The position numbers and the translations under genes were made by a program. Below the pieces are notes generated by a model. That model was not told the DNA's origin. It saw only the letters and a program-made list of their open reading frames with translations, and ran no database searches. Shown piece after piece: positions 596-63,455 of a stretch of 64,000 nucleotides of DNA; position 1 is the stretch's first letter, and every line of letters starts with the position of its first letter. Source of the DNA: Erpobdella octoculata (taxonomy: Eukaryota > Annelida > Clitellata > Hirudinida > Erpobdellidae). Location: assembly GCA_963978895.1 (NCBI GenBank), contig OZ022246.1, positions 13,003,742-13,067,741 on the forward strand, read 5' to 3'.

Positions 596-637
596 GGTCT
601 CTGATGATGACAAACTAACTGTCGAATCTCGTTAGCC
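596..637 (+). ncRNA. Decayed hammerhead ribozyme remnant of a PLE
   Basis: The CTGATGA core (601-607) is followed by a U, a stem II pair (GACA/TGTC) and GAA. The ACG...CGT helix III seen in the other copies is lost: the copy reads GAATCTCGTTAGCC where the 22.6 kb copy reads GAAACGGTCCGTTAGCC. Stem I is also imperfect. It sits at the same place relative to a PLE tail as the three intact copies. Probably inactive. Confidence 0.55.
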
Positions 638-744
638 CTGTTTATTACTTTAAACTTATAAGTTAGACCTTTTAGTTTATTTTAATTATTTTATAACATA
701 ATTGTCTTTTTAAAAGTTTTTTTTTACAAATAAACGTAAATACG

Positions 745-1017
<273 letters not shown>

Positions 1018-6835: not shown

Positions 6836-6905
6836 CTTTGAGACACGCTCTAAGAAACACAACTCGCCATTTGGCAGAAACAACTTTTCGAGCCAAATTC
6901 TCGAC
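6836..6905 (-). repeat. Inverted PLE terminal segment
   Basis: Exact reverse complement of the PLE tail downstream at 8068-8145. It encodes, on the minus strand, the same KWRVVFLRACLKD block and stops at a short (TA)n at 6810-6835. Confidence 0.9.
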
Positions 6906-6907
6906 CT

Positions 6908-7828
6908 TATGTTATTAATAGTTATCTCCTCAGAGCTTATCGTTTTTCCGAAACCTGGTCAGATTTCCATAAAGAAATAGTTAGAATCAAGCAGTTATTG
7001 GTTAACAACAATTATTCTAATAGCTTTGTCGACGGTTTTATTAACAATTTTGTAACCAAAATGAAAACATCTGTGAGTTCGGCTGGGTCTGACGCTGACA
7101 AGGGTCGTGATGTACGCCAGGAGTTCCCCGTGTTCTACAAAAATCAAATGAATCTCAATTACAGAATTGATGAAAGTATTATAAAGAAGATAATAAAAAA
7201 GGAAGTTTCTGTTATAGACCCCGTCAGGAATAAACTGGGTTTATATATTTATTACAAAAACTTGAAACTTTTCAATTTGGTCATCAAGAATGATAGAACA
7301 AGTATCACTGACCCGTTGCAACAAAGTCACGTGGTGTACCATTTCAAATGTTCTATTCCACATTGTAAGGTGGATACATACATTGGTCACACTACCACTA
7401 CGTTGTCAAGGAGACTCACGATGCATCTCCAGTTTGGGAGTATTCTTAATCATTATGAATGTATTCATTTGAAAAAGCTAACACGAAAAGAACTTGAAGA
7501 AGGTGTTTCGATTTTAACAAGAGAATCCGACTCTTTCCGGCTGAAAATTAAAGAGGCTCTCTATATCTTATTAATGAGACCCGCAATTAATAAACAATTT
7601 GATAAATTTCCACAGATTCTCCACTTATTCGGTGTCAAAGAAAGCAATATGCATCGGTTACCCTGTATTCCTTCTAACGACGAGGATAACATAAATGATG
7701 ATACTTCTGACTCGTCCTCTGACACAAATACTTTGGCTGTTGAGGCTGCTCCTGACGAATCTCATTGTAATGTATCTGAGGAAATTCTTGTCTCTTCTAA
7801 TATAACACAGCGAAAACGCAAAAATTGA
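6908..7828 (+). pseudogene. PLE polyprotein C-terminus: RT thumb and GIY-YIG endonuclease
   Basis: The frame is open from about 6908, without a start because the 5' part is lost, to TGA at 7826-7828. It opens with a PLE RT thumb-like stretch (AYRFSETW, then FHKEIVRIKQLL). About 130 codons on is a GIY-YIG nuclease: VVYHFKC with a second Cys, YIGHTTTTLSRRL with the catalytic Arg, and KEALYILLMRPAINKQ with the conserved Glu and Asn. In PLEs this endonuclease nicks the target for reverse transcription. The tail after about residue 230 is acidic and Ser-rich and ends in KRKN, possibly an NLS. The nuclease domain itself looks intact. A related broken copy is at 55555-56235. Confidence 0.85.
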
Positions 7829-7961: not shown

Positions 7962-8003
7962 GACCCTGAGGATGGCTGACATAGCTGAAACGGTCCGTCG
8001 GTC
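7962..8003 (+). ncRNA. Hammerhead ribozyme 1 (type I, PLE)
   Basis: Stem I is GACC (7962-7965) with GGTC (8000-8003). The core CTGAGGA (7966-7972) is followed by an extra U, stem II GGCT/AGCT (first pair G-U) with loop GACAT, then GAA, helix III ACG/CGT with loop GTC, and C7999 as the cleavage-site base. All invariant core bases are present. PLEs are known to carry type I hammerheads with a very short helix III. Predicted cleavage is after 7999. The ATG of the downstream ORF is A7972-T7973-G7974, inside the core. Confidence 0.82.
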
Positions 8004-8168
8004 TGACAATAAAAGTTTAATGGAAAAGTTTTTGGCTAATTGTAGTCTCGAACAGAGAGTTTTGTGCCGAAAGGTCGAGAATTTGGCTCGAAAAGTTGTT
8101 TCTGCCAAATGGCGAGTTGTGTTTCTTAGAGCGTGTCTCAAAGATAAATTGATTCCACAGTTTATTCG

Positions 8169-8170
<2 letters not shown>
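7972..8170 (+). CDS. Short PLE terminal ORF overlapping the ribozyme
   Basis: It begins MADIAETVRRS and runs about 66 codons to IPQFIRN before entering (TA)n. The start ATG shares bases with the hammerhead core. The end block (KWRVVFLRACLKDKLIPQF) is conserved in five other copies here. It probably is the N-terminus of the PLE polyprotein, which in tandem arrangements would continue into the next unit. As present it has no natural stop, reading on into TA repeat as Y-I. Function is not established from sequence. Confidence 0.5.

Positions 8171-8235
<65 letters not shown>
8171..8235. repeat. (TA)n microsatellite at PLE 3' end
   Basis: TA array directly joined to the codon after FIRN of the PLE terminal ORF. 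From 8236 to 8465 the DNA is AT-rich with nothing recognised. Confidence 0.95.
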
Positions 8236-9962: not shown

Positions 9963-9974
9963 TAGGATACAAGA

Positions 9975-11543
9975 ATGGTTTTGAAATCATTGGATGAGCT
10001 TTGGGCGAATGAAATGAAAGACGAGCTGGAGAAACGTGGCCTGAGCGATACAGGTAAAAAGGACGAACTTATGGAACGCCTCTTAGCCGCGTTAGTGAAT
10101 GAGGGCTATGGGCCTGGCCACGACGAATATCTATTCGACATTGACGAGGAAGCTGTGGTCAAGCGAAGGAAATTAAAAAACAAATTGCTGGAGGAAGAAA
10201 GACAACGAGCGAGAGAAAACATGGCAGCACAGAAGAAGACAGGAGAAGGAATGATTCTTGGCCACGGAAACAAAGTAGGAGCAGCCGGTACAACTGTTGA
10301 GAGTTTGGTCGCAGGGTTGGCTGAGGCAGTGGTGGACACGGTTCTGGACCAGCGGGCTGCTGGTGATGTGGGTTGCTGCGGCGAAACCCAATTTGAACTG
10401 GAGTCCACCAGCTGTGTCTCAGAGCATGTGACGGATGACGGCCGTACAGACTGCACAAGTCAGGTGGGTCATGATGATGAGCCTGTTAAAGACGGTCATG
10501 ATAAGGAACCTTGCAAAGATGCTCAAGATGAACCATGCAAAGTTGGTGACAGTGATACAGTCGGTTTGGACGTCAAAAACCAAACTAAAGAAGATGAGAA
10601 GAATGTTGAAAACGAAATGCAAAACGATGAGGATGAAAGTGATGATGATTATTATAATAATGGCAATAACAACTATGGCTTTCACCCATACAGCGACGGT
10701 TCTGAAACGGAAGCCTCCATAACAGACGACGGCACCGAATATTCAGGGTCAGATTTTAGTGAAGAATCTGACTCGGATGAAGCAACCGAGGATTTAGAAA
10801 CGGACGAAACTCCAATGGAAAAATACGTCAAAGTTAAGTTGACAAAAAAAGAAGACACTGATTTCAGAGACGATGGCGATAATTTGAAGAAAGATCCGTT
10901 GGACGATACGAAAGTTAACACCGACGAAAGAGCCGAGTTGGAATGTGAAAAGAAAACGTTCGATTGTAGCTTGGAAGAAAACAAACATGACGACGATGAA
11001 CTTCTCCAAAACAACAATAGCAATGCAGCAAGCAAAAACTCTGGAAAAGATGAGACAAGAACAGAGAACGGTACCGAGGGTTTTAAATCAGATGAATCCA
11101 CAGAGGATCCTAGATCAGATAGACTAAGAGTCATTGTAAAATCAAATACCAGTTTGATGAAGGGATTTATTGGATTTATGGAACGACGTGTTTTCGAAAA
11201 ACCTTTTGAAGAGTTTTTTGAGAGAGATCGAAAAGATGTGAAGGAAGAAGAAAAAACAGACAATTCCGATAAACTGTGCAAAGATGTTCAGGACGAGGCA
11301 TGCAAAAAAGGCTGTGATGAACCGTGCAGAAATGGCGACGATGAGCCAAAGAAAGACTCTGTTGATGAGCCAAAGAAGGACTGGAAGAAACTGTGTCAAA
11401 CGGTCAAGAGACTTGACCATGTTGTTTGCGAATTGCGGTCAAAGCCACGAGTAAAGATCAAGGTATTTTGGTGTTCGTGGCCGAGTCGCATTTCTCAAAA
11501 GCGACTATGCTGTTCGGGACGAACAGAATTAAGAAGGGGGTAA
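9975..11543 (+). CDS. SAP-domain acidic protein of LTR element (522 aa)
   Basis: The start ATG lies 12 bases after the putative primer-binding site, and the frame runs uninterrupted to TAA at the purine tract. Residues 5-45 form a SAP-like helix-turn-helix motif (LKSLDELWANEMKDELEKRG, then DTGKKDELMERLL), usually a DNA/chromatin-binding fold. A charged segment follows (KRRKLKNKLLEEERQRARE, about 62-80). The rest, to about residue 480, is very acidic and repetitive with CKD/PCK/DEP patches. There is no CCHC knuckle or DTG protease. The family suggests a gag-like role, with SAP perhaps tethering particles or complexes to chromatin; that is inference. ORFs on the opposite strand are shadows of its biased codons. 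Confidence 0.8.
   Translation: MVLKSLDELWANEMKDELEKRGLSDTGKKDELMERLLAALVNEGYGPGHDEYLFDIDEEAVVKRRKLKNKLLEEERQRARENMAAQKKTGEGMILGHGNKVGAAGTTVESLVAGLAEAVVDTVLDQRAAGDVGCCGETQFELESTSCVSEHVTDDGRTDCTSQVGHDDEPVKDGHDKEPCKDAQDEPCKVGDSDTVGLDVKNQTKEDEKNVENEMQNDEDESDDDYYNNGNNNYGFHPYSDGSETEASITDDGTEYSGSDFSEESDSDEATEDLETDETPMEKYVKVKLTKKEDTDFRDDGDNLKKDPLDDTKVNTDERAELECEKKTFDCSLEENKHDDDELLQNNNSNAASKNSGKDETRTENGTEGFKSDESTEDPRSDRLRVIVKSNTSLMKGFIGFMERRVFEKPFEEFFERDRKDVKEEEKTDNSDKLCKDVQDEACKKGCDEPCRNGDDEPKKDSVDEPKKDWKKLCQTVKRLDHVVCELRSKPRVKIKVFWCSWPSRISQKRLCCSGRTELRRG
11531..11540 (+). promoter_or_regulatory. Polypurine tract of SAP element
   Basis: AAGAAGGGGG overlaps the last codons of the ORF and lies 18 bases before TGTAAAATC of the right LTR. 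The intervening TA-rich bases may belong to the LTR. Confidence 0.6.
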
Positions 11544-14076: not shown

Positions 14077-15748
14077 TCAATTTGGATTGGATTTTGCAAA
14101 TAGAAATATCTTTAGCTCGGCCTTGAATAAACTCAATGTAGTGGCTTCTCGGATGCTTGCAGGCAACATATTCCATGTTGAGGGTCCAGCTATACTGAAG
14201 GCTCGACTACCGTAAGTTTTTGTTCGAGTAATGGGAACAACTAGATCACCACGACTAGCTGATCTATGACGAGATAAGTAAGAATTGTTATCAGACACAG
14301 TAACACACAGCTCTTGCAAATATGAGGGGGCTTCGCCATGGAGCGCCTTATAGACTAAAGTCCCAATTTTGAAAGTTATTCGCTCAGAGATACGCAGCCA
14401 CCGGAGTTCAGTTTTCATTATTGCAGTCACATGATCATGTTTCTTTAGTCCACCAAAAAGACGAGCAGCTGCATTTTGAATACGTTGAATCTTTCCAACA
14501 GCACTAAGAGGTAAGCCTGTGAATAGAGAGTTGCAGTACTGACAATAAACGAATGCAGCAGGAGACGTGTTGCTTCACTTGTCAGAGACTTTCGTATGGT
14601 TCTAAGTTGTCGTAGTTGGAAAAAACATGTTTTTGACATTTTAGATATATGATCTTTTATGGAAAGTTCAGAATCGACATAAACACCTAGGTTTCGAACA
14701 ACTTCTGTGGGGGCAACCAAAGCCCCAGCAACCAACAAAGCTTTTGCTTTACTCTGTTGCAACTTTGGTCTTGCACCTATCCAGATTAATTCAGTCTTAT
14801 CGCCATTCAGTTTTAGACGATTAGAAGCCATCCACTGTTCAATGTTCTCTATGCAGGGCAATAAGCGAAGGTGAACATTTTCCACATCATCAACAGAGCA
14901 GTGAACATATGTTTGGGTGTCGTCGGCATAGCAGTGTCCCTCGAGTCCAGAACGATGAATAATTGTAAGTAAATCAGTGGTGTACAATAGAAACAGTAGT
15001 GGGCCCAAGACTGATCCCTGGGGTACTCCACTACTAAGCGACACGGACAATGACAAGTTCCCACCCACACTAACCCGTTGCGTGCTGTTAGTTAAATATG
15101 AAATAATCCATTTTAAGACAACTCCACAGATGCCATGAGTTTTTTCAAGTCTCTCAATAAAGATTCCATGGTCAACAGCATCAAATGCGGCACTCAGATC
15201 TAATAGACTCAGTAGCGACACCTGACCACTATCAGTAGCAACTGCCAAATCATTGACCACTTTGAGTAGTGGAGATTCTGTAGAGTAAAACCGGCGATAC
15301 GCAGATTGGTTCCATGGGAGACTGCCAGAAAGACCTAGATGTACATTCAATCGTTTTGCAACAATCCGCTCTACCAGTTTTGACATAAAGGTCAGGTTAG
15401 AGACTGGTCGATAGCTCTTCATGTCAACAGGGTCAAGTCCGTCTTTTTTAATAAGCGGAGTGACAAGTGCAGACTTCTGACTAGCAGGAAAATATCCTTT
15501 TTATAAATATCGAGTGCACATCAAAGCGACAAAAGATGCAATGTGGACACAACATTTTTTGATAATCCAAGTTGGGGATGGATCCAGTGAACAATATTTG
15601 TTCCTGAGCAGCCATTATGAATATTATTATCTCATTAGCCGTGACTGGCTGGAATTCATCCATGAACAACGTGCTGGTCAAAAGTATAGATGGTGGTTTT
15701 CAAGCGCTGTATGTGTTCGAACTTGCTCTACCTTGTCTTGAAAAAACC
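14077..15748 (-). pseudogene. L2-like reverse transcriptase, frameshifted
   Basis: The long open part (15422-14445) has RT motifs LLDLSAAFDAVDH, SSGVPQGSVLGPLLF and YADDTQTYVH, with LNGDKTELIW and RNLGVYVD downstream, the style of the L2 clade. A frameshift near 14440 leads into the C-terminal block (14430-14077) with APSYLQEL, RSASRGDLVVP and WNMLPASIREA. Upstream, 15748-15423 carries the pre-RT part (FFQDKVEQVRTHT, then SLDPSPTWIIKKCC and YFPASQKSALVTPL) in shifted frames. Catalytic Asp residues are present. No endonuclease, so it could not retrotranspose alone. Confidence 0.85.
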
Positions 15749-16045: not shown

Positions 16046-16094
16046 ATGAGTTCTGATGATGGCTAATAAAGCCGAAACCTGCAGGTCAGCTCAT
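16046..16094 (+). ncRNA. Hammerhead ribozyme 2 (type I, PLE)
   Basis: Stem I is ATGAGTT (16046-16052) with AGCTCAT (16088-16094), seven pairs including one G-U. The core CTGATGA (16053-16059) is followed by an extra U, stem II GGCT/AGCC, GAA, helix III ACC/GGT with loop TGCA, and cleavage-site base C16087. All invariant bases are present and the stems covary relative to the other copies. The best-paired of the set. Confidence 0.88.
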
Positions 16095-16259
16095 GACCAT
16101 AACATTAATAAAAATATATACCAGTTTGTTCAAAAGTGTCTTGGTATTTCCGATTTTCGAAAAGTTTCACGTTTGATAGAAAAAGTTTGTAATAAGAAAT
16201 GGGCCATAGTCTTTAATAAAGCGTGTTTGAAAGAACATCTTGTTCCTAATTATTTGAAA
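16059..16259 (+). CDS. Short PLE terminal ORF overlapping ribozyme 2
   Basis: The ATG at 16059-16061 is formed by the last core A, the inserted U and the first G of stem II; another ATG lies three bases upstream. The frame begins MANKAETCRSAHD and is open for 67 codons to KKWAIVFNKACLKEHLVPNY, then enters (TA)n. It aligns at both ends with the ORF at 7972. A preserved frame in two divergent copies suggests real coding, likely the PLE polyprotein N-terminus, but no stop or downstream domain is attached here. Confidence 0.5.
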
Positions 16260-16262
16260 AAT

Positions 16263-19640: not shown

Positions 19641-19814
19641 AAGTGGTGGTTGTAGTAACTCAATGGCTTTGTTCCAAGTTGTATTCTGGTAGCTATATTA
19701 GCTAGGCTAACAGAAGGGGTGGTGACACTTGCGTTCCTTCGTTAGCAATAGCTTAGTCGACGATGGAGTTGTAAAATAGTGATAGGGCAAAAAAGGCAGT
19801 AATTTCAGTTATTG

Positions 19815-20244
19815 CCCGTCACGTCACGTCACGTTACGTTACGATACGTTACGTTACGTTACGTTACGTTACGTTGCGTTGCGTTACGTTACGTTGCGTT
19901 GCGTTGCGTTGCGTTGCGTTGCGTTGCGTTACGTTACGTTACGTTACGTTTCGTTACGTTACGTTACGTTGCGTTGCGTTGCGTTGCGTTGCGTTGCGTT
20001 GCGTTGCGATACGTTACGTTACGTTACGTTACGTTACGTTACGTTACGTTACGTTACGTTACGTTACGTTACGTCACGTTACGTTACGTTACGTTACGTT
20101 ACGTCACGTTACGTTACGTTACGTTACGTTACGTCACGTTACGTTACGTTACGTTACGCTACGTCACGTTACGTTACGTTACGTTATATTACGTTACGTT
20201 ACATTACATTACATTACTTTGCGTTACGTTACGTTACGTTACAT
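19815..20244 (+). repeat. (ACGTT)n pentanucleotide satellite with 30-bp higher order
   Basis: About 85 pentamers. The left half mixes ACGTT with blocks of GCGTT. In the right half ACGTC variants recur at 20071, 20101, 20131 and 20161, exactly 30 bases apart, so six-unit blocks have been duplicated. CpG in every unit contrasts with the AT-rich surroundings. Long TLRYV-type ORFs in three frames are artefacts. Confidence 0.95.
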
Positions 20245-22079
20245 ACATAATTCCCATACGACAACGGCTGCACGTTGACGACGACATATTTAATTATTAT
20301 TGATTCAATGGAATAATAATTAATATTATAATTCTATTTAATAATTATTACACAACACCCACGTGCATTAATCTTCTCGACACGAACAAAAATCTTATTT
20401 TCTTTTTGTAAAACGTTTTTTTGTTATATTTAAACTAAAAAAATCTCAAGAAAAGTAGCATAAAAACGCCAAAATGGCAAAAATTTAGTGAAAACGAAGA
20501 GAAAATTGACAAAATGGGAACAAGAAGATATTGTGTAGGTGGAAAAAAAGAAAAAATAGAAAAAAAGAGAAAAAATGTAGAAGTAAGAAAATAAACGACA
20601 ACATTGGAGCAATAAAACCTGCTCCCCATCAGCACAAGAGCACAACACACAACGATTTAGGTATCATCAAGTTGATACGAAAACATGTGTTTAGATATGT
20701 TAATTTGTCTGCGTACGTGTTCCAAAGTGTTTAAGCTTGTTTATGTGCGTGATAAGAGCACATACGAGCACATCACGTTAACCCTGAAGGTGTTCTGTGG
20801 CTTTTATATTTCACACTTTGTCTTTGTAGAGTGTTAGATTATCGCGAAACGATGAACTTAAGTTACTGGTGTAATTTGCAGTGGCGGTAATGGTTATGAT
20901 GATGATGAGGATAATAGTTATAATATTGGTTTCTTTTTAATAATAATATTATTATAGCAATCATAACATAAATAATATTATTAATTTAAAAAAATCATCG
21001 AATCATGTGTCGATCCATTATTTCATTTGCGTAAGTTATCAAGTTATTAGCAACAATAAAATTTATTCAATAGTCTCATTTTTATGAAATAAACTTGTTT
21101 GAGTTATTTTTAAAAAATATCAATTTAAAAAAAAACAAATAACAATCAGTCAAAAATAAACTTCTCCATGGACTATTTTTAATGATTTAAAAACAACTCA
21201 AATAATTAGGTGCTTCAAAAATACATACATTTCAATTTTAAAACAGCTAGTGTAAAAGACTAAAAACTATTATAAAAAAACAATATTTTATCGTAATACC
21301 ACACAGCATAAAAATCATTTAAAGAGGCGACAACAAAAACGCCCGCGGCAACAAACGACAAGAAAGCGAAACTGCAAATAATTTTCTTCTACTCGCGAGT
21401 AGCAGGCGTTGCTGTAAATAATTTTCGATTATTGCGTTTTTACCGAGTTATTTTTTTTGTTCTTGATGCTCTGTACTTGAAAGGGGAAAGCAGCGAACGT
21501 TAAAAAGTCCGTAAATGCCAATATGGTATTTGGAAAATTGGAGGCATCGGTGTGTTTATAGAGGAATTGTTTTGACAATTTTTGGGACTGAAGTGAAAAA
21601 GTTGTTCAATATCCACACAAATGGAGTCGTTTAATGTCGTAAAGCGGTGTGAAGATGTCTAGTTAATACTGCCGTGTGCAGATGTGCTTGTGCGTATATA
21701 CAGCGGCGGATCCAGGAATTTTGTAAAGGAGGGCCAAATTTTTTTTATTTTTTTTATTTTAATTACTGTCGTTATGAAGCTCATTGTAAGATATCTTAAT
21801 TTTTTTATTTAGTAAAACTAAAAAAAAGAATTGAAATTAAATTTTTTATTTACTCCCATTTTCCCTCTGTTTTCCTCTCATTTTTTCTGTATTTATTTTC
21901 TCTGGAGATACATCAACACAAGACACCACTTTTTTCTATCAAGCTAAAATTAAGTGAACCATAAAAACTTTTGTAATTCGGCGGCTACAAATTGTTTGCA
22001 AATTTTTTTGATGATAATAAGTCTATAAAATAGAAAAACATTGACCACAGCCTTCTAAATATTTAATGTGTGAACTAAG
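20245..22079. other. AT-rich DNA, no gene; possible hAT terminus
   Basis: No supported ORF. CAGCGGCGGATCCAGGAATT at about 21701 resembles hAT terminal repeats (CAGNGGCGGATC). No partner end or 8-bp duplication was found. A slightly GC-richer patch lies at 21330-21440. Confidence 0.35.
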
Positions 22080-22330: not shown

Positions 22331-22623
22331 TTGAACATATTCCTGATTGTCAGATCATAACAGCAGATTATTGAATAAAACAAGTAATATTTGTAATTTT
22401 ACATTGTCTTCTTCTATAAGCAAATTATGACCACACCAATAATCTTGTATATACTATTTTATATTTTAAATTATTTAAACTTTATTAATACGTAATTTTA
22501 TCTCAGTTCCTCTTACGATATTCTAATATCAAAGGTAGGTACGTTCAACCTGGTTTTATTGTTTATTTTATTTTATCGTTTCTTGCGTTGACGTTTGGTT
22601 TAAATTTTAAATGGGCTCTGAGG

Positions 22624-22952
<329 letters not shown>

Positions 22953-35706: not shown

Positions 35707-36101
35707 TAGTCAGTCGATACACCGATCAGTTTTGGGTGAGATTCGTCCTGGGCGATAGAGTTCATCGAGTTGGTGAAGTTCTATCGAGTTTGGTGATCTA
35801 ACGACTTTGGCGGTATCCAGTGGTTTTGGCGGAGTCAGCGGGATTCGACCGGGATCTGCAAAACCGACCAGGGATTCGACGCAAATCGACCAGATCAAGG
35901 AGGATCCTCACCGCAAGATCGACGATTGACGATTCAGTGCTGGAGAAAGAGTCCGGACAGTTTCAGACCGTTCAGTTCGATCACGTGGCGACATCCATTT
36001 CGCAAGGAGGGCCGATCCACATCTCAGGTTAGAGATTTTATCGTTGCCGGATTGCCCAGTTAGGTTTTTCTTTCTTTTTCTGTGTAGTAGGTTTCATAAA
36101 T

Positions 36102-39100
36102 ATGATTAGAACCCCTACGGTTGAAGAGTCAGTTGCGCTGGATAGTCCAACAGGGATCCTTAGCGAGGAGCACTATCAATTTGTTGATGATAGTCGGCGT
36201 CCACGTAGAGTTAGTGATGATGCTAACGTTAGTAAAAGTTCTAAGTCAGAAATAGCTGAGCGTAAGTTAGCATTGCGCGAAGCAGAATTGGCGGCAAAAG
36301 AAGCTAAGTTAGAAGAAGATAGGGCGAACCGCAGACTAGCTGAAGCTAAGTTAGAACAGGAGAGCAGACTCGCTGAAGCTAAATTAGAACAGGAGAGCAG
36401 ACTCGCTGACGCTAAATTAGAACAAGATAAGGCTACGTTAGATGAAGATAGGGCGAATCGCAGACTCGCTGAAGCTAGGTTAGATGAGGATAGGGCAACC
36501 CGCAGACTTGCTGAAGCTAAACTAGAGCTGGAACGTGAAAGGATTCAGGACCACAATAGTCTTGAAGGTTCCTTAGCCGTTCGCACTAGTCGCTTTCAAA
36601 ATGCCATGAAGGGTGTAATAGCGGAGTTTCCTTTAGATCCTGCTGCAATACCTGGGTATTTTCAATATCTAGAGAATCAATTTGTGTCTTACCAAGTTGA
36701 TGATGATGTGAAACCCAAAATATTGCAGGCCCATTTAAATGATAGAGCTCGCTCAATCTTGTGTCGATTGACCATTGCTCAATTAAATGATTATGAGGAA
36801 TTAAAGCAAATTCTACTGCAGGAATTTCGGGTCACTCCCATTCTATTGAGGGAGAGGTTTTATGCTGTAAAAAGAAAACCTGGTGAGACTTATTCACAGG
36901 TAGCTTCTGAATTACACACAGCGTTGTCCTATTATATTAAAAGTAGGAATATCGATGAGAATTTCCATCAATTAGTTAGTTTGATGTGTGCCGATAGGTT
37001 GAAACAACTAATGTCTCCCAGTTGTGCAGATTTCATTTTAACCCAGGAAAGGGATGATTGGTTAACTCACCTAGAGCTTTCTCGCGTTGCGGATAGCTAC
37101 ATGGCCACACACGAACATGAGACTAGACCGTTTCGATTCGACAACCCAAAACCAATAGATAGAGGAGCAGGGTTTTCAATTTCTAGCAAAATGTCTAAAA
37201 ATGCTATTGACACGGATACTGATAGAGACAAAAGGTACGGACTGTGCTTTAAATGCCATAAGAAGGGTCATTCATTCAAGGAGTGTCCTTCACACCCATT
37301 TCCTTCCTCAAACTTACCTAATCCCAGAATTAATTGTTGTCAAACAGAAAATTCCTTTAATTATCTCGGTGATAGGAAAACATTTGTTGATGATAAAAAT
37401 TTGTCCTCTCAGTCAAAAAATTCCCATAATTGTCTCGATGATAGGAAAATATTGGTTGATGGTAAAAATTTGTCTTCTCATTCAGAAAATTCCCTTAGAG
37501 GTCTCGTTGATAGGAAAATATTGTTTGATGGTCAAAAATCTTTTCCCGGTCCCGAGGCATGTCCCATTATAGATGTTGATGATTATCACATTAGGTCTTA
37601 TGAGAATGTATTTATCGATCAATTACCATCTATTCCAGCTTTGATTGATGGTGGTGCAGAAGTATGTTGCATTAGAGAAGATTTAATTAAATCTCTTCAT
37701 AGGGTACCACATAAATTTATAAAATTATCCGGCCTTAAAGGTCAACCAGAAATTGTAGGTTGTGTTAGATTAGTTGTTCGACCAGATCTTGTGGGTGATG
37801 ACATTGTGAACCTAGCACCCAAGGTTCGTGCATGGTTTGCTGTCGTCCCAAATCTTAATGAGCAAATTATTATCACTCCCTCCGTAAGTAATTTATTGAA
37901 AACGATATCATTGTATGATACCGTTGCATACCCTATTAAGAACAAACAAAATGCACATGACTCTGATGTGAATGTTCCCAGTCTTGAAATAACTAATTCA
38001 CAATATTTTGTTTTAGATGAACCTCGTAATGATGAGCATAGTCCAGATGTTGCATTGATTCTAGGTGAAGGTGTTTCTCGTGCTGCTGACGCTAGGAAAG
38101 TTGATTCACAGACCGATACTTGTCAGGACATAGGTGTTTCTGTAGTTGCGGGTGATGATATTTGTCCAGGTGCGGATGCAGGCGGAAGTGATTCACAAAC
38201 CGACGCTCGATTTACAACCATTAACGATGATTGTCAGGGGGTAGACGATAGTAATGATCCCGATGCGTTTGCTAAAGAGCAACATGATTGTCCTTCACTG
38301 AAGTCCTTCTGGTTGCTAGGTATAGATAAGCGTAAAAACTTTTATATCGACCGGGGACTTTTGTTTCACAAGGAGAATCAGTGGGGTCATTCCATAAAAC
38401 AGTTGTGTTTGCCTAGGAGTCGTATACTTGCAGTGTTACAGATGGGGCATGATGCTCCCTATTCGGGGCACATGGCTGCCAAGAGTACACGGCAGCGTAT
38501 TCGACTCAGTTTTTGGTTTCCCGATATGGAGAAACAAGTCCAAACCTATTGTGAGTCGTGCCCCGTATGCCAGTTAAGGGCACCTGTTAGAAAAAGAGAT
38601 CGGGTCCCCATAACTCCCATACCACGGGGAGATGAACTACCATTTAATCATTTAGTTATGGATTGTATAGGGCCCATAATTCCAGCGGGTGATAGTGTGA
38701 CTATCCGACCCAAGTATAATTATGCCCTGGTTGTTGTCGATTTGTTCTCTAGAGGGCCGATGGCTTATCCATTAAGGTTATTAAATGCTAAGTCTGTATG
38801 TGACCGACTTTTCAATGTATTTTCAGTTCCTCGAATGGTTGGTTTTGTTTGTAGTTATTTCACTTTGAACCTACTTGCGGGTGTGAGAGATTCTTGGAAT
38901 AGTGCAAAGGATGTGCCTTGGCATTTAGGTACAAAACCACCTGACTACTGGGGGAAGCAAAAGCAAAATCTCAGAATAGCCGTGAGATTTGGTGGAATCG
39001 CAGGTGATCATATTGTCAAATACTATTTTTGGGGTATGAATCGCCGGTGCGACATCGTGCCATTGTGGATTGCCGTGGTGGGCCCGATGATTTGTGCTTC

Positions 39101-39290
39101 AAAGGGACCTAGGGGAGACTACTTTCCAGTCCCCGATATCCCGAATCTGCTACAGATGGTAGGCAGAGCACAATTCCTAAGCTGTTGGCAAATTTCTATG
39201 AAGTTACTGTACTTTCTTACGAGTAAGATTTACTCGAGTTATGCAGAAATGTTGTCTATGGTCTGGAGTCGGTCAGCAATGCCTTGCTGA
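36102..39290 (+). CDS. Gag-protease-partial integrase polyprotein (1062 aa)
   Basis: The start is the first in-frame ATG after the 5' leader. Residues about 48-160 are a coiled coil of repeated LAEAKLEQE/LDEDRA units. A gag core follows (SRFQNAMKGVIAEFPLDP, ARSILCRLT, GETYSQVASELH), then a CCHC knuckle CFKCHKKGHSFKEC (382-395). A 23-residue tandem repeat (DRKILVDGKNLSS) spans about 425-490. The protease motif ALIDGGAEV has Asp516 but G in place of the usual T/S after it. A spacer then leads to the integrase zinc domain (H783 to CESCPVC at 817) and the first catalytic Asp (854, MDCIGP). RT and RNase H are absent between protease and integrase. After about residue 905 the integrase core degrades: the second Asp and the Glu are not found. 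Gag may be functional; enzymes are not. Confidence 0.85.
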   Translation: MIRTPTVEESVALDSPTGILSEEHYQFVDDSRRPRRVSDDANVSKSSKSEIAERKLALREAELAAKEAKLEEDRANRRLAEAKLEQESRLAEAKLEQESRLADAKLEQDKATLDEDRANRRLAEARLDEDRATRRLAEAKLELERERIQDHNSLEGSLAVRTSRFQNAMKGVIAEFPLDPAAIPGYFQYLENQFVSYQVDDDVKPKILQAHLNDRARSILCRLTIAQLNDYEELKQILLQEFRVTPILLRERFYAVKRKPGETYSQVASELHTALSYYIKSRNIDENFHQLVSLMCADRLKQLMSPSCADFILTQERDDWLTHLELSRVADSYMATHEHETRPFRFDNPKPIDRGAGFSISSKMSKNAIDTDTDRDKRYGLCFKCHKKGHSFKECPSHPFPSSNLPNPRINCCQTENSFNYLGDRKTFVDDKNLSSQSKNSHNCLDDRKILVDGKNLSSHSENSLRGLVDRKILFDGQKSFPGPEACPIIDVDDYHIRSYENVFIDQLPSIPALIDGGAEVCCIREDLIKSLHRVPHKFIKLSGLKGQPEIVGCVRLVVRPDLVGDDIVNLAPKVRAWFAVVPNLNEQIIITPSVSNLLKTISLYDTVAYPIKNKQNAHDSDVNVPSLEITNSQYFVLDEPRNDEHSPDVALILGEGVSRAADARKVDSQTDTCQDIGVSVVAGDDICPGADAGGSDSQTDARFTTINDDCQGVDDSNDPDAFAKEQHDCPSLKSFWLLGIDKRKNFYIDRGLLFHKENQWGHSIKQLCLPRSRILAVLQMGHDAPYSGHMAAKSTRQRIRLSFWFPDMEKQVQTYCESCPVCQLRAPVRKRDRVPITPIPRGDELPFNHLVMDCIGPIIPAGDSVTIRPKYNYALVVVDLFSRGPMAYPLRLLNAKSVCDRLFNVFSVPRMVGFVCSYFTLNLLAGVRDSWNSAKDVPWHLGTKPPDYWGKQKQNLRIAVRFGGIAGDHIVKYYFWGMNRRCDIVPLWIAVVGPMICASKGPRGDYFPVPDIPNLLQMVGRAQFLSCWQISMKLLYFLTSKIYSSYAEMLSMVWSRSAMPC

Positions 39291-56411: not shown

Positions 56412-56522
56412 TATACGTGTAAATTGCGATAAAGATAGTCGTTAAGTCAGTTTTCTAAGGTATTAGTCATCGCTCATCCGGGTATTTTTTTTTTTCGAGC
56501 GTAAGTTAAACTGAATTTAACA

Positions 56523-59500
56523 ATGACTGAAAGTACAGCTTCGAGAATTACGAAACTAAATAATCATAATTATCAAACTTGGAAGTTTAAGATCGAACTT
56601 TTGTTGACTAAAGAAGATTTGTGGGATACCATTAGTGAAGACTCGCCGAATCCCACAAACACCGCATGGCAATTGAAGGACCGTAAAGCTAGAGCCACGA
56701 TCGGTTTACTTGTAGAAGACAATCAGCTGAACCTCATCCGGAAGTTAACAACTGCTAAAGAAACGTGGGATGCTCTAAAGAAATATCATGAAAAGTCTAC
56801 ATTATCGAATAAAGTTAATTTGTTAAAGAAACTTTGTGGGTTAAAGTTGACAGAAACTGGAAATATGGAGCAACATCTGGCAAAAATGGAAGATTTGATC
56901 GACCAGTTGTCATCACTCGGTGAATCATTTGCTGAACATTTAACTGTTGCATTATTTCTAAGTAGTTTGCCTGATAGTTATGGAACATTAATCACTGCCC
57001 TTGAAACTCGACCTGAGGAAGACCTGACTCAAGAGCTTGTCAAGAATAAACTCTTAGAAGAATATAAGAGACGAACAGAAATGACTACCTCAGTAACCGA
57101 ACATCAGGAACAACAGGCGATGAATGTACATGCTACTCGTGAGAACCAACCAAACGTATCAACAGGAAGATCAACCTTGACATGTTTCTTTTGTAAAAAG
57201 CCAAATCACATCAAAAAAGACTGTAGAAAATATATAGAATGGAAGAAGAAGCACCCTGAACATAAAGTAAAAACTGTGAAACATTTTACTCAAGTTAATG
57301 ATAAAAGAAATTTCCAACAAGGTTATGATGTTTGTTCAATAGCACGTACAGCTAATATCATCAATTCGTGGTATATAGATTCAGGTGCTACATCACACAT
57401 GTGTGGAGATAGAAATTTCTTTGCAGCTTTGGACAAAAGGCTGAAGGTTGAAGTGGTTCAGGCTGATGGGGGTAAATTAACATCATCTGGTATTGGTTAT
57501 GGGTACTTACAGAATTTTAGTCCTGATGGAAATCTCGGTTTGAAAACAAAGTTATTAGATGTGTTGTTTGTTCCAGAATTAAAAGGAAATTTGATATCTG
57601 TAAAGAAGCTAACTAGTTTTGGATTTGAAGTACATTTCAAAGGAAACACATGTCATGTAATAAGAGATGGTGAAATTATGTTACATGCAGTTGAAGAAAA
57701 AGGCCTCTATGAATTCATCACAACCCAAAAGACATTCAGAGTTACTTGCAATAACATGCCTACAGAATGCATACATCTCTGGCACAACAGGTTGGGTCAT
57801 AGAGATACTAATGCCATCAAGACTCTTGCTCATGATTCTGCAGTGAATTTCCATATAAAACCTTGTGAAATTTCAGACATTTGTGAAACTTGTATCAAAG
57901 CAAAAATGAGTAGAAAGCCTATTCCAAAGAAATCTGAATCCAAAACAGATGATGTGCTTGACTTGATACACACTGATGTCTGTGGAACAATGTCTACCTC
58001 AACACCCAGTGGCAACAGATACTTCATGACTATGATTGACGACTACAGTAGATACACAGAAGTTTATTTGTTGAAATACAAATTTGAAGTGTCATCAAAA
58101 ATTAAAGAATATGTCAAGTATGTTCAAACAAAATTCAGAAAAACTCCAAAGATAATCAGATCAGACAGAGGAGGTGAATACACAGGAGATGAACTAAAGA
58201 TGTTTTTAAAGAATGAAGGCATTCAGACTCAACTGACAAATCCCTACACACCTCAACAGAATGGTTGTGCTGAAAGGAAAAATCGATACTTAGTCGAAAT
58301 GGTGAGAAGCATGCTGATTGATTCTGATTTACCTGACAGATATTGGGGAGAAGCAGTAACTACAGCCAACCACATGCAAAACAGGCTCCCAGTGACAGGA
58401 CGTGAAGAAACACCCTACCAGATGTGGAATGAAAAGAAACCCGATTTGAGTTACATCAGAAAGTTTGGTTGCAAAGCTTATGTTTCAATTCCTGCAAATA
58501 AAAGACAAAAGTTAAGTGATAAAGCAAGAAAGTTAATTTTTGTTGGCTACGAAGAAGGGACAAAAGGTTACCGTTTGCTTGATTCAGAAACAGACAAAAT
58601 CACCATCAGTAAAGATGTCATTTTCATTGAAGGAGAACCCCATTCAAATCAAACCAGAACTGAACAGAGACTTAATTCTGATCTTGCTAGTGAAGAAAAT
58701 TTTGTTGAATTATCACTTGAAGATGATTTTGTGGATCATGATAAAGCAACGATTCAAAGTAATGAAATCGAATTGAATAAAGACAATACAGCTATTCAGT
58801 TAACATCAAAACAGCAAGTAGAACTCAGAAGATCTCAACGACCTAACAAAGGGAAACCACCAAAGAGGTTTGAGGTTATCAACAAAGTGACAGTTAACCC
58901 GATTGTACCCAGAACCTATGAAGAAGCTGTATCATGTACAGAAGCTCAACAGTGGATTGCAGCAATAAAAGAAGAACTCAGATGTTTAGAATTGAATAAA
59001 ACCTGGATTTTGACAGATTTACCCGAGAATAAAACAGCCATCGGAAGTAAATGGGTATACAAAATAAAAACTGATGAAAATGAAAATGTCGTCAAATATA
59101 AAGCTCGTTTAGTTGCTCAAGGTTATTCTCAGAAATATGGTGATAGTTTCGATGAAGTTTTTGCACCGGTTGCCAGGACAACTACACTTCGAGCATTATT
59201 AACTATAGCTGGTCAGAAGAAAATGATTGTTAAGCATTATGATGTACAATCAGCTTACCTTAATGCCAATCTGTCTCATGAAGTTTACATGAAGCAACCT
59301 GTACCTTTCGGTAACAACGATCTAGTATGCAAACTTTCAAAGAATTTGTACGGACTGAAACAAGGAGCCAATGAATGGAACAAGAAACTTCATGAAATTC
59401 TCAGTAATCAGAGTTACAACAAAAGCGAGAATGATCCATGTCTATATTTTAAAAGAGATAACAAAAAGTTAATATACTTATCCATTCACGTTGATGATCT

Positions 59501-60440
59501 TATTGTGGCGACAACTGATTTATCAATGATTGAAGAATTTGAACACCAAATGAATAAAGTTCTTGTTTTAAAAGATCTTGGAAATCTAAAGTATTATCTT
59601 GGAATTCAATTTCAAAGAGACCAAGATGGCATATTTTTGTTAAACCAGCAAAAATATATTGATAGTAAATTACAAGAATTCAATTTGACCGATAGCCGAC
59701 CATCAAGCATACCGATTGATACTGGATATCAAAAGAGACAAGAACCACAAGAGTGTTTTGAGAATAAAGAAGTTTATAGAAGTGCCATAGGATCTCTACT
59801 GTATTTGTCGACAAACACCAGACCAGATATTGCAGTAGGAACTTCAATTCTTGCAAGACATGTTAGTGATCCAAAGAAATCTGATTGGACTGAAGTTAAA
59901 AGAATCTTTAGATATCTGAATGACACCAAACAGAAACAATTGAAATTAGGTTCTTTGAGTGAACAACATGCCACACAACTAATAGGTTATGCAGATGCTG
60001 ACTGGGGAGGTGATCTGAATGACAGAAAATCTAACACAGGATTTTGTTTCAAGTACTTAGGTTCACCAATTTCATGGGTGAGTAGAAAACAGACTATGGT
60101 TACTCTCTCATCTACTGAAGCTGAATACATAGCCCTAGTTGAAGCAGTTCAGGAAGCTCTATGGATACTGAGAATACTTAAAGATCTTGACCAAGAACTA
60201 AAGAAGCCTGTTATTATATATGAAGACAACCAGAGTTGTATTAGAATACTGCAGAATGACAGGTGTTCTCAGAGTACGAAGCACATTGACACCAAGTATC
60301 GCTTCATCCGTAACTTATACAGATCTGGTGAAATTGATGTTAGATACTGTCCGAGCGAGAAGATGATAGCTGACTTGTTAACTAAACCATTAGGACCAAT
60401 CAAGATTAAACAGTTAGCTCAAGACATTGGACTGTTTTAA
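56523..60440 (+). CDS. Copia gag-pol polyprotein (1305 aa), intact
   Basis: Single ORF typical of Ty1/Copia. Order: gag (KLNNHNYQTWKFKIELLL), CCHC knuckle CFFCKKPNHIKKDC (221-234), protease YIDSGATSH (Asp286), GAG-pre-integrase zinc region (HNRLGH...CETC), integrase with Asp485, Asp548 and Glu584 (D-x35-E), RT (KWVYKIKTDE, QSAYLNA, LYGLKQG, HVDD with Asp992), and RNase H (YADADW near 1158, STEAEY, EDNQS, IADLLTKP). All catalytic residues expected are visible and there is no stop or frameshift. The ATG is 126 bases after the LTR. Gag would form particles; pol copies and integrates. Gag and pol are fused, so the gag excess mechanism is not apparent. Confidence 0.97.
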   Translation: MTESTASRITKLNNHNYQTWKFKIELLLTKEDLWDTISEDSPNPTNTAWQLKDRKARATIGLLVEDNQLNLIRKLTTAKETWDALKKYHEKSTLSNKVNLLKKLCGLKLTETGNMEQHLAKMEDLIDQLSSLGESFAEHLTVALFLSSLPDSYGTLITALETRPEEDLTQELVKNKLLEEYKRRTEMTTSVTEHQEQQAMNVHATRENQPNVSTGRSTLTCFFCKKPNHIKKDCRKYIEWKKKHPEHKVKTVKHFTQVNDKRNFQQGYDVCSIARTANIINSWYIDSGATSHMCGDRNFFAALDKRLKVEVVQADGGKLTSSGIGYGYLQNFSPDGNLGLKTKLLDVLFVPELKGNLISVKKLTSFGFEVHFKGNTCHVIRDGEIMLHAVEEKGLYEFITTQKTFRVTCNNMPTECIHLWHNRLGHRDTNAIKTLAHDSAVNFHIKPCEISDICETCIKAKMSRKPIPKKSESKTDDVLDLIHTDVCGTMSTSTPSGNRYFMTMIDDYSRYTEVYLLKYKFEVSSKIKEYVKYVQTKFRKTPKIIRSDRGGEYTGDELKMFLKNEGIQTQLTNPYTPQQNGCAERKNRYLVEMVRSMLIDSDLPDRYWGEAVTTANHMQNRLPVTGREETPYQMWNEKKPDLSYIRKFGCKAYVSIPANKRQKLSDKARKLIFVGYEEGTKGYRLLDSETDKITISKDVIFIEGEPHSNQTRTEQRLNSDLASEENFVELSLEDDFVDHDKATIQSNEIELNKDNTAIQLTSKQQVELRRSQRPNKGKPPKRFEVINKVTVNPIVPRTYEEAVSCTEAQQWIAAIKEELRCLELNKTWILTDLPENKTAIGSKWVYKIKTDENENVVKYKARLVAQGYSQKYGDSFDEVFAPVARTTTLRALLTIAGQKKMIVKHYDVQSAYLNANLSHEVYMKQPVPFGNNDLVCKLSKNLYGLKQGANEWNKKLHEILSNQSYNKSENDPCLYFKRDNKKLIYLSIHVDDLIVATTDLSMIEEFEHQMNKVLVLKDLGNLKYYLGIQFQRDQDGIFLLNQQKYIDSKLQEFNLTDSRPSSIPIDTGYQKRQEPQECFENKEVYRSAIGSLLYLSTNTRPDIAVGTSILARHVSDPKKSDWTEVKRIFRYLNDTKQKQLKLGSLSEQHATQLIGYADADWGGDLNDRKSNTGFCFKYLGSPISWVSRKQTMVTLSSTEAEYIALVEAVQEALWILRILKDLDQELKKPVIIYEDNQSCIRILQNDRCSQSTKHIDTKYRFIRNLYRSGEIDVRYCPSEKMIADLLTKPLGPIKIKQLAQDIGLF

Positions 60441-61440: not shown

Positions 61441-63372
61441 TCAGTGTTTCTTGATTACATCGTCACTCTCTTTACGACTAAGAAAGTCAGCACCGATGTT
61501 CTCCTTGCTTTTGAAATAGTTTACTTTCAACTTATTCTCAATCTCTATCTCTCTGCGTGCTGTGTCAACAGGGCGGGCATCTCCGAAGATTGCCGAATTC
61601 AACTTTCCATCTTTCCCCACCCCTCCATTTTGGCCTCTAGGCAGAAGATTGAGCCTTGGTCTTTCTTTTGGCGGATTCAAAGCTTGAACTTTTGCCTCAA
61701 CTTTATTTCCTACCTTTGAAATGGCAGACGTGTTTCTTTCCTTGCTTTGATACAGCTCCGAGTTAGCCGACGATTTTCTAAAATTTACCCGATCATTCCT
61801 CTGAGTGCTGTCGTAGTTGGAAGCGGATTTCTGTGGTTTCCGACCAAAGCGTTTTCCTGCCGCCATTGCATCAAAACCCCTTACCCCTTCAACATTTCCC
61901 AGCACGAGATCGCAAAGTAGGTTTTTCATGCACACCACCTCTCTAGTTCCTCTGAACCAGCCTGTTTTGATTTTTACCACTGCTGTTGGAGCTACCCGAA
62001 CTGTGCCGTCGATCAAAACACAGGGTCTTGTTCTTCCGGTCATCTGACGCGGGTGCACTAATGATTCCTTTACCATTATGGCAGTACAGCCAGTGTCCCT
62101 CAAAACTTTTACCGGTTTTCTGTTCACAAACCCTCTGGTTAAATTAAACATTTCCCCTGAGTGCAAACAACCATCCGCAATGACAGGCAAAACGCATCCA
62201 CACTTCAATTCCACCTCATCCATTTTTCCTTCTATCACCATGGCAGCGCATGCATTCACAACGCCGGAATCCTTGCATGATGTTGTCAAGTTGGCCTCTC
62301 TTCGTGCTTGGCACATGACTGGAGTTGCTTGAGTGCCTTGACTGTAGTCCCTCGCGATCTGTCCAGCGTGATGACAATCCTTTGCCATATGGCCCAGCTT
62401 ATTGCAATTGTAACAGCGTGGTCCAACCATTCCCGAGTCAGAGTCTGGTTGACCACGATTTCCGCTAATCCTGCTTGCGTTCTCGACCTTTGCCAAGCTT
62501 TTGATTGGGTGAGCTTGACTGTATTTGTTGACCCAGCGACTTAACTCGTTGACGTCAACGCTTTCTTTTTCCAACAAATACTCAGCCATTCCCGACGAAC
62601 ACTTTCCAAAGAACTGCTCTTTTAGGAACAAAAACAAATAGTTTTTTGTACCCGCGAGATCCACCCAGCGCCTGAGGTAACTATCTAGTCGCACCAGATA
62701 CTGTTCCCAAGTCTCTTCTGGTTCAAGCTTTGACTCTCGAAACTTTATTCGGTAGTCTTCTGCCGACTTCCCAAAACGGCGAAGGAGTGCCTCCTTTACC
62801 GACTCGTAATCCTGCATCTGACTCTCGCCGAGCTGGCCAAACACTTCCAATGTCTTCGCACTAAGCAACGACCCTAGAAGCATTCCCCAATCCTTCTGAG
62901 GGTGACCATTGGCTTTTGCCAATGACTCAAATCTCAGCAAAAATGCGTCGATGTCATCACCTTCAGAAAACTTTGGATAAGGAATCTTTGTTACCTCTAC
63001 CTTTGGCTCTTTTTTCGTTAGGGCCTCTAATTCCAGCTTCTTCAATTCCAATTCATGTTGGCGTTGTTCGCGCTCACGTAGAAGTTGAAGTTCTCGTTCT
63101 TCTTTAGCTTGTTGGAGTTCTCGTTCTTCTTTAGCTTGTTGGAGTTCTCGTTCTTCTTTAGCTTGTTGGAGTTTTCGTTCTTCTTTAGCTATTTTATCTT
63201 CACGTTCCCGTTGTGCTATTTTATCTTCACGCTCCTGCTGAGCTTTTTTTTTTTCCCGTTCCTCCATTATCTTAACCCTTTCTTCATCCTTCACCTCTTT
63301 GACATAACTCCTTAAATCCACTCCGGAATAGCCGAGAGCCTGTCCCATCGCAATGAATTTCTCGTCAGACAT
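61441..63372 (-). CDS. Gag-protease protein with truncated pol remnant (643 aa)
   Basis: Starts MSDEKFIAMGQALG about 80 bases after the primer site. Residues about 25-125 are a coiled coil with repeated LQQAKEEREL units. The gag core (YPKFSEGDDIDAFLLRFESL, WEQYLVRLDSYLRRWVDL) is of the Gypsy type related to SCAN-like gags. A CCHC knuckle CYNCNKLGHMAKDC is at 320-333, and an aspartic protease motif LRDTGC at Asp426 with later LVLGN. The C-terminal end (NYFKSKENIGADFLSR) matches the RNase H/integrase junction of Gypsy pol. So RT and RNase H have been deleted in frame and integrase is absent. The frame is intact, suggesting gag is under selection or deletion is recent. Confidence 0.87.
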   Translation of the reverse strand: MSDEKFIAMGQALGYSGVDLRSYVKEVKDEERVKIMEEREKKKAQQEREDKIAQREREDKIAKEERKLQQAKEERELQQAKEERELQQAKEERELQLLREREQRQHELELKKLELEALTKKEPKVEVTKIPYPKFSEGDDIDAFLLRFESLAKANGHPQKDWGMLLGSLLSAKTLEVFGQLGESQMQDYESVKEALLRRFGKSAEDYRIKFRESKLEPEETWEQYLVRLDSYLRRWVDLAGTKNYLFLFLKEQFFGKCSSGMAEYLLEKESVDVNELSRWVNKYSQAHPIKSLAKVENASRISGNRGQPDSDSGMVGPRCYNCNKLGHMAKDCHHAGQIARDYSQGTQATPVMCQARREANLTTSCKDSGVVNACAAMVIEGKMDEVELKCGCVLPVIADGCLHSGEMFNLTRGFVNRKPVKVLRDTGCTAIMVKESLVHPRQMTGRTRPCVLIDGTVRVAPTAVVKIKTGWFRGTREVVCMKNLLCDLVLGNVEGVRGFDAMAAGKRFGRKPQKSASNYDSTQRNDRVNFRKSSANSELYQSKERNTSAISKVGNKVEAKVQALNPPKERPRLNLLPRGQNGGVGKDGKLNSAIFGDARPVDTARREIEIENKLKVNYFKSKENIGADFLSRKESDDVIKKH

Positions 63373-63455
63373 CTTTCACAAAAGAAAAAAAAAATTCGGT
63401 CACTTGTGATCAAACAACTTCAGAAAATATATTTACGGATGAAAATGCGTAAATA

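Follow-up and report, generated by a model that had tools for sequence, protein, structure and literature searches.

A start codon embedded in a minimal hammerhead motif at the ends of probable Penelope-like elements of Erpobdella octoculata

The window analyzed here, a stretch of 64,000 nucleotides of the annelid Erpobdella octoculata (assembly GCA_963978895.1, contig OZ022246.1, positions 13,003,742 to 13,067,741 of the forward strand), contains four copies of a motif resembling the hammerhead ribozyme (HHR), and in three of these copies the ribozyme motif and the start codon of an open reading frame (ORF) overlap, as read from the sequence. The copies, designated c596, c7962, c16046 and c22613, are most likely the 3' ends, or pseudo-long terminal repeats (pLTRs), of an endonuclease-bearing Penelope-like element (PLE) lying in (TA)n microsatellites, judging from their sequence features. 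As the best explanation overall, we consider it highly probable that these pLTR ends carry a minimal type I hammerhead core with one extra U, that the start codon of the element's ORF comes from this core plus U, and that the element follows the order of events proposed below. The motif, the overlap, the conservation of the frame and the junctions were observed in the copies themselves; ribozyme activity and the order of events are inferred, in part by analogy with a PLE of a lizard.

The hammerhead consensus, in its usual numbering, comprises the CUGANGA core, stem II, GAAA, a UH cut site and a closing stem I. In the canonical hammerhead, A9 joins stem II directly. We searched the window with a strict descriptor (insert of 0-2 nt, perfect stem II of at least 3 bp, GAAA, UH cut site and stem I of at least 4 bp), the ranges of which were fixed after the copies had been seen. 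Exactly three places were found (7966, 16053 and 22618), every one with an insert of one nucleotide, a U. The same descriptor gave 3 matches across 300 windows simulated with a first-order Markov model, both strands included. When the stem I requirement was dropped, an additional place appeared at 7752+. Simpler patterns were also counted. There are 28 CTGANGA cores on both strands, and a core followed by GAAAC within 4-30 nt is present at the same three places; this loose pattern had a mean of 0.59 in shuffled windows, and 3 of 100 shuffles reached three, which is a modest excess and weak alone. The string CTGANGATG occurs six times (601+, 7966+, 16053+, 22618+, 29586- and 56138+), a number reached in 0 of 100 shuffles (mean 1.35); by eye, the sites at 29586- and 56138+ lack hammerhead surroundings.

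The three copies that match the descriptor are all on the forward strand and can be read stem by stem. In c7962 (7962..8003), stem I (7962-7965/8000-8003, GACC/GGUC) encloses the core (7966-7972), the extra U (7973), stem II (7974-7977/7983-7986, GGCU/AGCU with one G-U pair), GAA (7987-7989) and stem III (7990-7992/7996-7998, ACG/CGU), and the cut is predicted between 7999 and 8000. The copy c16046 (16047..16093) presents stem I at 16047-16052/16088-16093 (UGAGUU/AGCUCA with one G-U pair), the core at 16053-16059, the extra U at 16060, stem II at 16061-16064/16070-16073 (GGCU/AGCC) and stem III at 16077-16079/16084-16086 (ACC/GGU), with the predicted cut between 16087 and 16088. In c22613 (22613..22656) the corresponding elements are stem I at 22613-22617/22652-22656 (GGGCU/AGCCC), the core at 22618-22624, the extra U at 22625, stem II at 22626-22628/22636-22638 (GAC/GUC) and stem III at 22642-22644/22648-22650 (ACG/CGU), the cut being predicted between 22651 and 22652. 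Pairing is maintained despite the differences in stem sequence, and one stem III pair is swapped, being G-C in c7962 and c22613 and C-G in c16046. It should be mentioned that the MAFFT alignment of the four hammerheads misplaced c596, so the stems were compared by eye and not by a formal covariation count. On the descriptor match and the pairing stems, these three copies are assigned to the hammerhead class. The fourth, c596 (596..638, forward strand), is decayed: core and extra U are retained and stem II has 4 bp, with GAAT in place of GAAA and a closed frame. The minimal type I hammerhead consensus of PLEs is thus found in three of the four copies, with c596 departing from it at GAAA.

In all four copies, an AUG is formed by A9, the extra U and G10.1, the first G in stem II. 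A preliminary description of this DNA had located the copies correctly and had already pointed out this AUG; its reading of three copies and a decayed fourth as hammerheads with an extra U holds for the core and the U in all four, while c596 lacks the GAAA box and the frame. The cut, which had been placed about 27 bases downstream, is predicted after ORF nucleotides 28, 29 and 28, that is 25, 26 and 25 nt past the AUG, in c7962, c16046 and c22613, respectively, so that cleavage would part the AUG from the remaining frame, as had been suggested. The conserved frame M-x3-(A/V)-E-T-x-R was confirmed in three of the four copies, c596 reading MTN*. The invariant GAAAC does write the E-T pair in those three copies; however, E-T follows from GAAAC and a 12-nt spacing, hence it is not independent evidence for selection on a protein, and the coding signal lies past the cut. 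Regarding the context of the start codon, as considered by the Kozak rule, core residue A6 provides the purine at position -3 in all copies, and position +4 is occupied by G in two copies (c7962 and c16046) and by A in the other two. Furthermore, N7 is a U in c16046 and c596, which creates a second in-frame AUG (A6-U7-G8) 3 nt upstream.

The frame set by the embedded AUG stays open up to the (TA)n tract in two of the four copies: from the AUG at 7972-7974 in c7962 (7972..8170, forward strand), where it would encode the N-terminal part of the PLE ORF, and from the AUG at 16059-16061 in c16046 (16059..16261, forward strand). In both, it is open for 56-57 codons past the cut, for which the chance estimated from base composition is about 0.006 and 0.015. 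When the segments 3' of the cut of c16046 and c7962 were compared, the AUG frame scored 96, the other eight frame pairs scored at most 36, and the maximum among 5000 residue shuffles was 57. Of all the frames 3' of the cut, only the one set by the AUG is conserved as protein between these two copies. A single BLASTP comparison of the two peptides 3' of the cut gave an E-value of 2e-11. In the decayed copies, the tail peptide is also conserved, but out of frame or after stops: in c22613 (22624..22785, forward strand; AUG at 22624-22626) there is a stop at codon 10 and the conserved tail is in another frame, and in c596 the decayed ORF-start segment (804..877, forward strand) ends at a short end against (TA)n.

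The surroundings of the copies resemble those of PLE insertions. Upstream of the c7962 hammerhead there is a C-terminal part of a PLE-like ORF (6909..7828, forward strand) with the motif KC-x4-C-x4-YIG-x5-L-x2-R-x3-H, which represents the C-terminal part only, without the reverse transcriptase (RT) core. The stop-to-stop ORF opens at 6854, and 6854-6908 belongs to an inverted piece. The full 324-aa C-terminal piece had no match in Pfam, NCBIfam or PDB sequences, PDB sequence searches yielded no relevant relative, a 108-aa stretch matched Pfam GIY-YIG with an E-value of 0.041, below the cut-off, and the AlphaFold2 model of the 324-aa piece was of low confidence (mean predicted local distance difference test score of 41.2). 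The copy c7962 is 5'-truncated, in the order C-terminal ORF piece, 143 nt, hammerhead, ORF start and (TA)n (8171..8234), the latter being its 3' junction, and c16046 is a pLTR-sized piece flanked by (TA)n tracts on both sides. On the 3' side, (TA)n is reached with the ORF start at the junction in four of four copies. At the 5' end of one of the four copies, c7962, an inverted copy of the ORF-start segment (6836..6908, reverse strand) abuts the 5' (TA)n tract with a short end (+172); it is identical at 73 of 73 nucleotides to 8071-8143 of the forward strand, and the two form a perfect 73-nt inverted repeat at both ends of one insertion, near or against (TA)n. Such a repeat is the footprint that would be expected if priming on both cut strands had used the same RNA region. 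With the inverted piece included, five ORF-start ends abut (TA)n, three of them long (c7962 at +199, c16046 at +203, and c22613) and two short (the inverted piece and c596); the types of c22613 and c596 were set by eye from translations and alignments, as indels shift their distances (+162 and +271). The traits of a pLTR, namely inclusion of the ORF start, two end types and an inverted 5' piece, were all found. No tandem or partial-tandem copies were observed, although truncation affects the copies: c7962 has a single pLTR at its 3' end, with no direct one at the 5' end, and c16046 is a lone pLTR; for c22613 and c596, no 5' end could be located. Searches for relatives gave 51 and 36 pattern matches in viral contigs (C-terminal piece and ORF-start alignment, respectively) and 90 in genome contigs (ORF-start alignment), with 0 confirmed in each case; as both collections consist of viral or prokaryotic DNA, these blanks say little about an animal element.

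A similar organization has been described in other PLEs. Poseidon_Ac (PAc) is a PLE of the Penelope/Poseidon clade from the lizard Anolis carolinensis, and its ORF, as here, starts inside the hammerhead at the junction of the core and stem II, with C3 and G8 preceding the start codon and the cut 26 bp past it, compared to 25, 26 and 25 nt in our copies (Frangieh et al. 2024, PMC11167929). In addition, its genomic copies end within the ORF start, where reverse transcription begins internally, and both strands are cut and extended, which the junctions observed here fit (PMC11167929). There are also differences: reverse transcription starts mostly 111-118 nt into the ORF in Poseidon_Ac, whereas the ends here are at about +172 and +199, and its target is a preferred ATT motif in AT-rich DNA, whereas (TA)n tracts are found at the junctions here (PMC11167929). 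In the Penelope families of Adineta vaga, the pLTRs contain the first ORF codons, an optional tail of 31 bp occurs and pLTRs at the 5' end may be inverted (Arkhipova et al. 2013, PMC3846280), a combination of ORF start, optional tail and inverted 5' piece like the one observed here. Pen2a includes 12 initial codons, or 22 when the 31-bp tail is present, compared to about 57-66 here, and the two end types differ by 27 nt here instead of by that 31-bp tail; the word hammerhead has a count of 0 in the text examined (PMC3846280). The minimal type I hammerheads of PLEs, as summarized in later papers, have a very short or absent helix III and are located in pLTRs (Cervera & de la Pena 2014; Lunse et al. 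2017, as cited in PMC6155905, PMC7229834 and PMC7761336), and the copies described here resemble them in both the very short helix III and the pLTR location.

The Poseidon_Ac hammerhead was assayed and cleaved only with added protein (PMC11167929). If this protein-dependent cleavage and the internal start of reverse transcription, both shown for Poseidon_Ac, are carried over to our copies, the following order of events is most likely. The transcript would be translated first, from the AUG embedded in the hammerhead. The protein would then bind the ORF-start part of the RNA and aid the folding of a weak hammerhead, and the cut 25-26 nt past the AUG would separate tandem units. Finally, reverse transcription would begin about 170-200 nt inside the ORF, so that element and genome would meet at the ORF start.

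Several results weigh against this explanation. Rfam gave 0 matches and no hammerhead for the whole window at the gathering score, and 51 matches for 1-30000 up to E 10, none of them a hammerhead and the top ones in simple repeats. Given this blank and the one extra U in all four copies, the motif was classed as a minimal variant rather than a canonical hammerhead. Folding energies are ordinary in all four hammerhead stretches (z of -0.59, -0.79, -0.97 and -1.65), and the hammerhead fold lies 1.9-6.3 kcal/mol above the minimum free energy (MFE) fold. With no Rfam match and ordinary energies, the basis of the assignment is the descriptor, together with stems that pair despite their differing sequences. 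As for the protein, the match to Pfam GIY-YIG at 7325-7468 (48 aa) is weak, with an E-value of 0.0074, below Pfam's curated cut-off. The frame is closed in two of the four copies (c22613 and c596), both broken further on too, and upstream AUGs are present in c16046 (at -84, -65, -13 and -3, the last one in frame) and in c22613 (at -13). The changes at codon positions 1, 2 and 3 were 32, 19 and 30 of 55 between c16046 and c7962 after the cut; they were 10/31, 6/33 and 5/31 for c22613 and 6/19, 4/20 and 9/19 for c596. These counts were set aside as coding evidence, being near saturation or without a clear pattern. No full-length member of this PLE-like family was seen, and we infer that its polyprotein starts at this AUG.

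Among the alternatives, the one to be taken most seriously, although we regard it as unlikely, is that the hammerheads are relics without cleavage activity and that the segment has been retained for coding and RNA binding alone. The disfavoured hammerhead fold in silico is in agreement with this idea, and in Poseidon_Ac the mutations that abolish cleavage left insertion in vitro unaffected and no RNA-seq reads start or end at the cut (PMC11167929). Against it, the core and paired stems are retained in three diverged copies, even in the frame-broken c22613, a retention that unselected common descent could also explain.

A more far-reaching reading is that the overlap is kept by selection as a one-way switch, the RNA being a message until its own protein binds and the hammerhead then cutting off the start codon; we consider this improbable. 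If so, loss of the start codon would end translation of that RNA and commit it to reverse transcription. On a tandem transcript, the start codon of each unit would stay at the 3' end of the preceding unit, and circularizing a released unit by end joining would restore the ORF. Such a switch, if true, would provide an in vivo role for these ribozymes, a role called still a mystery in a 2020 article (PMC7761336).

Slightly less probable still is that the AUG is accidental, the extra U being a structural trait of a minimal ribozyme lineage, with the true ORF start elsewhere and cleavage irrelevant to translation. The first codons carry little protein evidence, as GAAAC yields E-T at any spacing that is a multiple of three, and the upstream AUGs of c16046 and c22613 point in the same direction. 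In the plus hammerhead of chrysanthemum chlorotic mottle viroid (CChMVd), the extra residue sits before helix II. An extra core residue has a precedent in that non-coding RNA (PMC3705267). However, the sole conserved downstream frame is the one set by this AUG, c7962 has no ATG in the 143 nt between the stop of the preceding ORF and this AUG, and the published ORF of Poseidon_Ac starts at the equivalent place (PMC11167929).

An evolved OFF fold that hides the core until the protein binds, coupling translation and cleavage, is very improbable: in the three good copies the MFE fold does pair core residues with the segment 3' of GAAAC (conceivably GGAU with GUCC in c7962 and c22613, and UCUG with CAGG in c16046), but when each copy was set against 1000 random designs matching its stem and loop lengths, the fraction with a gap between hammerhead and MFE folds at least as large was 0.356, 0.747 and 0.598, so no designed switch can be claimed and the idea was abandoned.

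Concerning novelty, the preliminary description had considered the overlap to be undescribed, which proved wrong, since the same geometry is published for Poseidon_Ac (Frangieh et al. 2024, PMC11167929). In its main text, no mention was seen of the extra U as such, of the Kozak context or of start codon removal by cleavage; Cervera & de la Pena 2014, Lunse et al. 2017 and Arkhipova et al. 2017 may state them. What is left is a second, diverged PLE-like example and A6 as the Kozak -3 purine, the overlap itself being known in kind. Its presence in a second, diverged family suggests that it may be general in endonuclease-bearing PLEs.

Other features were observed in the window, most of them assigned by eye. 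An uninterrupted 1311-aa frame at 56505-60440 resembles a Copia-type gag-pol, with integrase and RT motifs, and a 1085-aa frame at 36033-39290, carrying a zinc knuckle and an integrase zinc finger, resembles the polyprotein of an LTR retrotransposon. On the reverse strand, a 644-aa gag-like frame with a zinc knuckle is located at 61441-63375. Broken reverse transcriptase-like frames of the non-LTR type are present at 1175-1846, 2022-2648 and 14077-15500 (reverse strand), and a 525-aa acidic frame with a SAP-like N-terminus at 9966-11543. Finally, a tandem array with a short unit of about TACGT extends over 19775-20303, with all three forward frames open.
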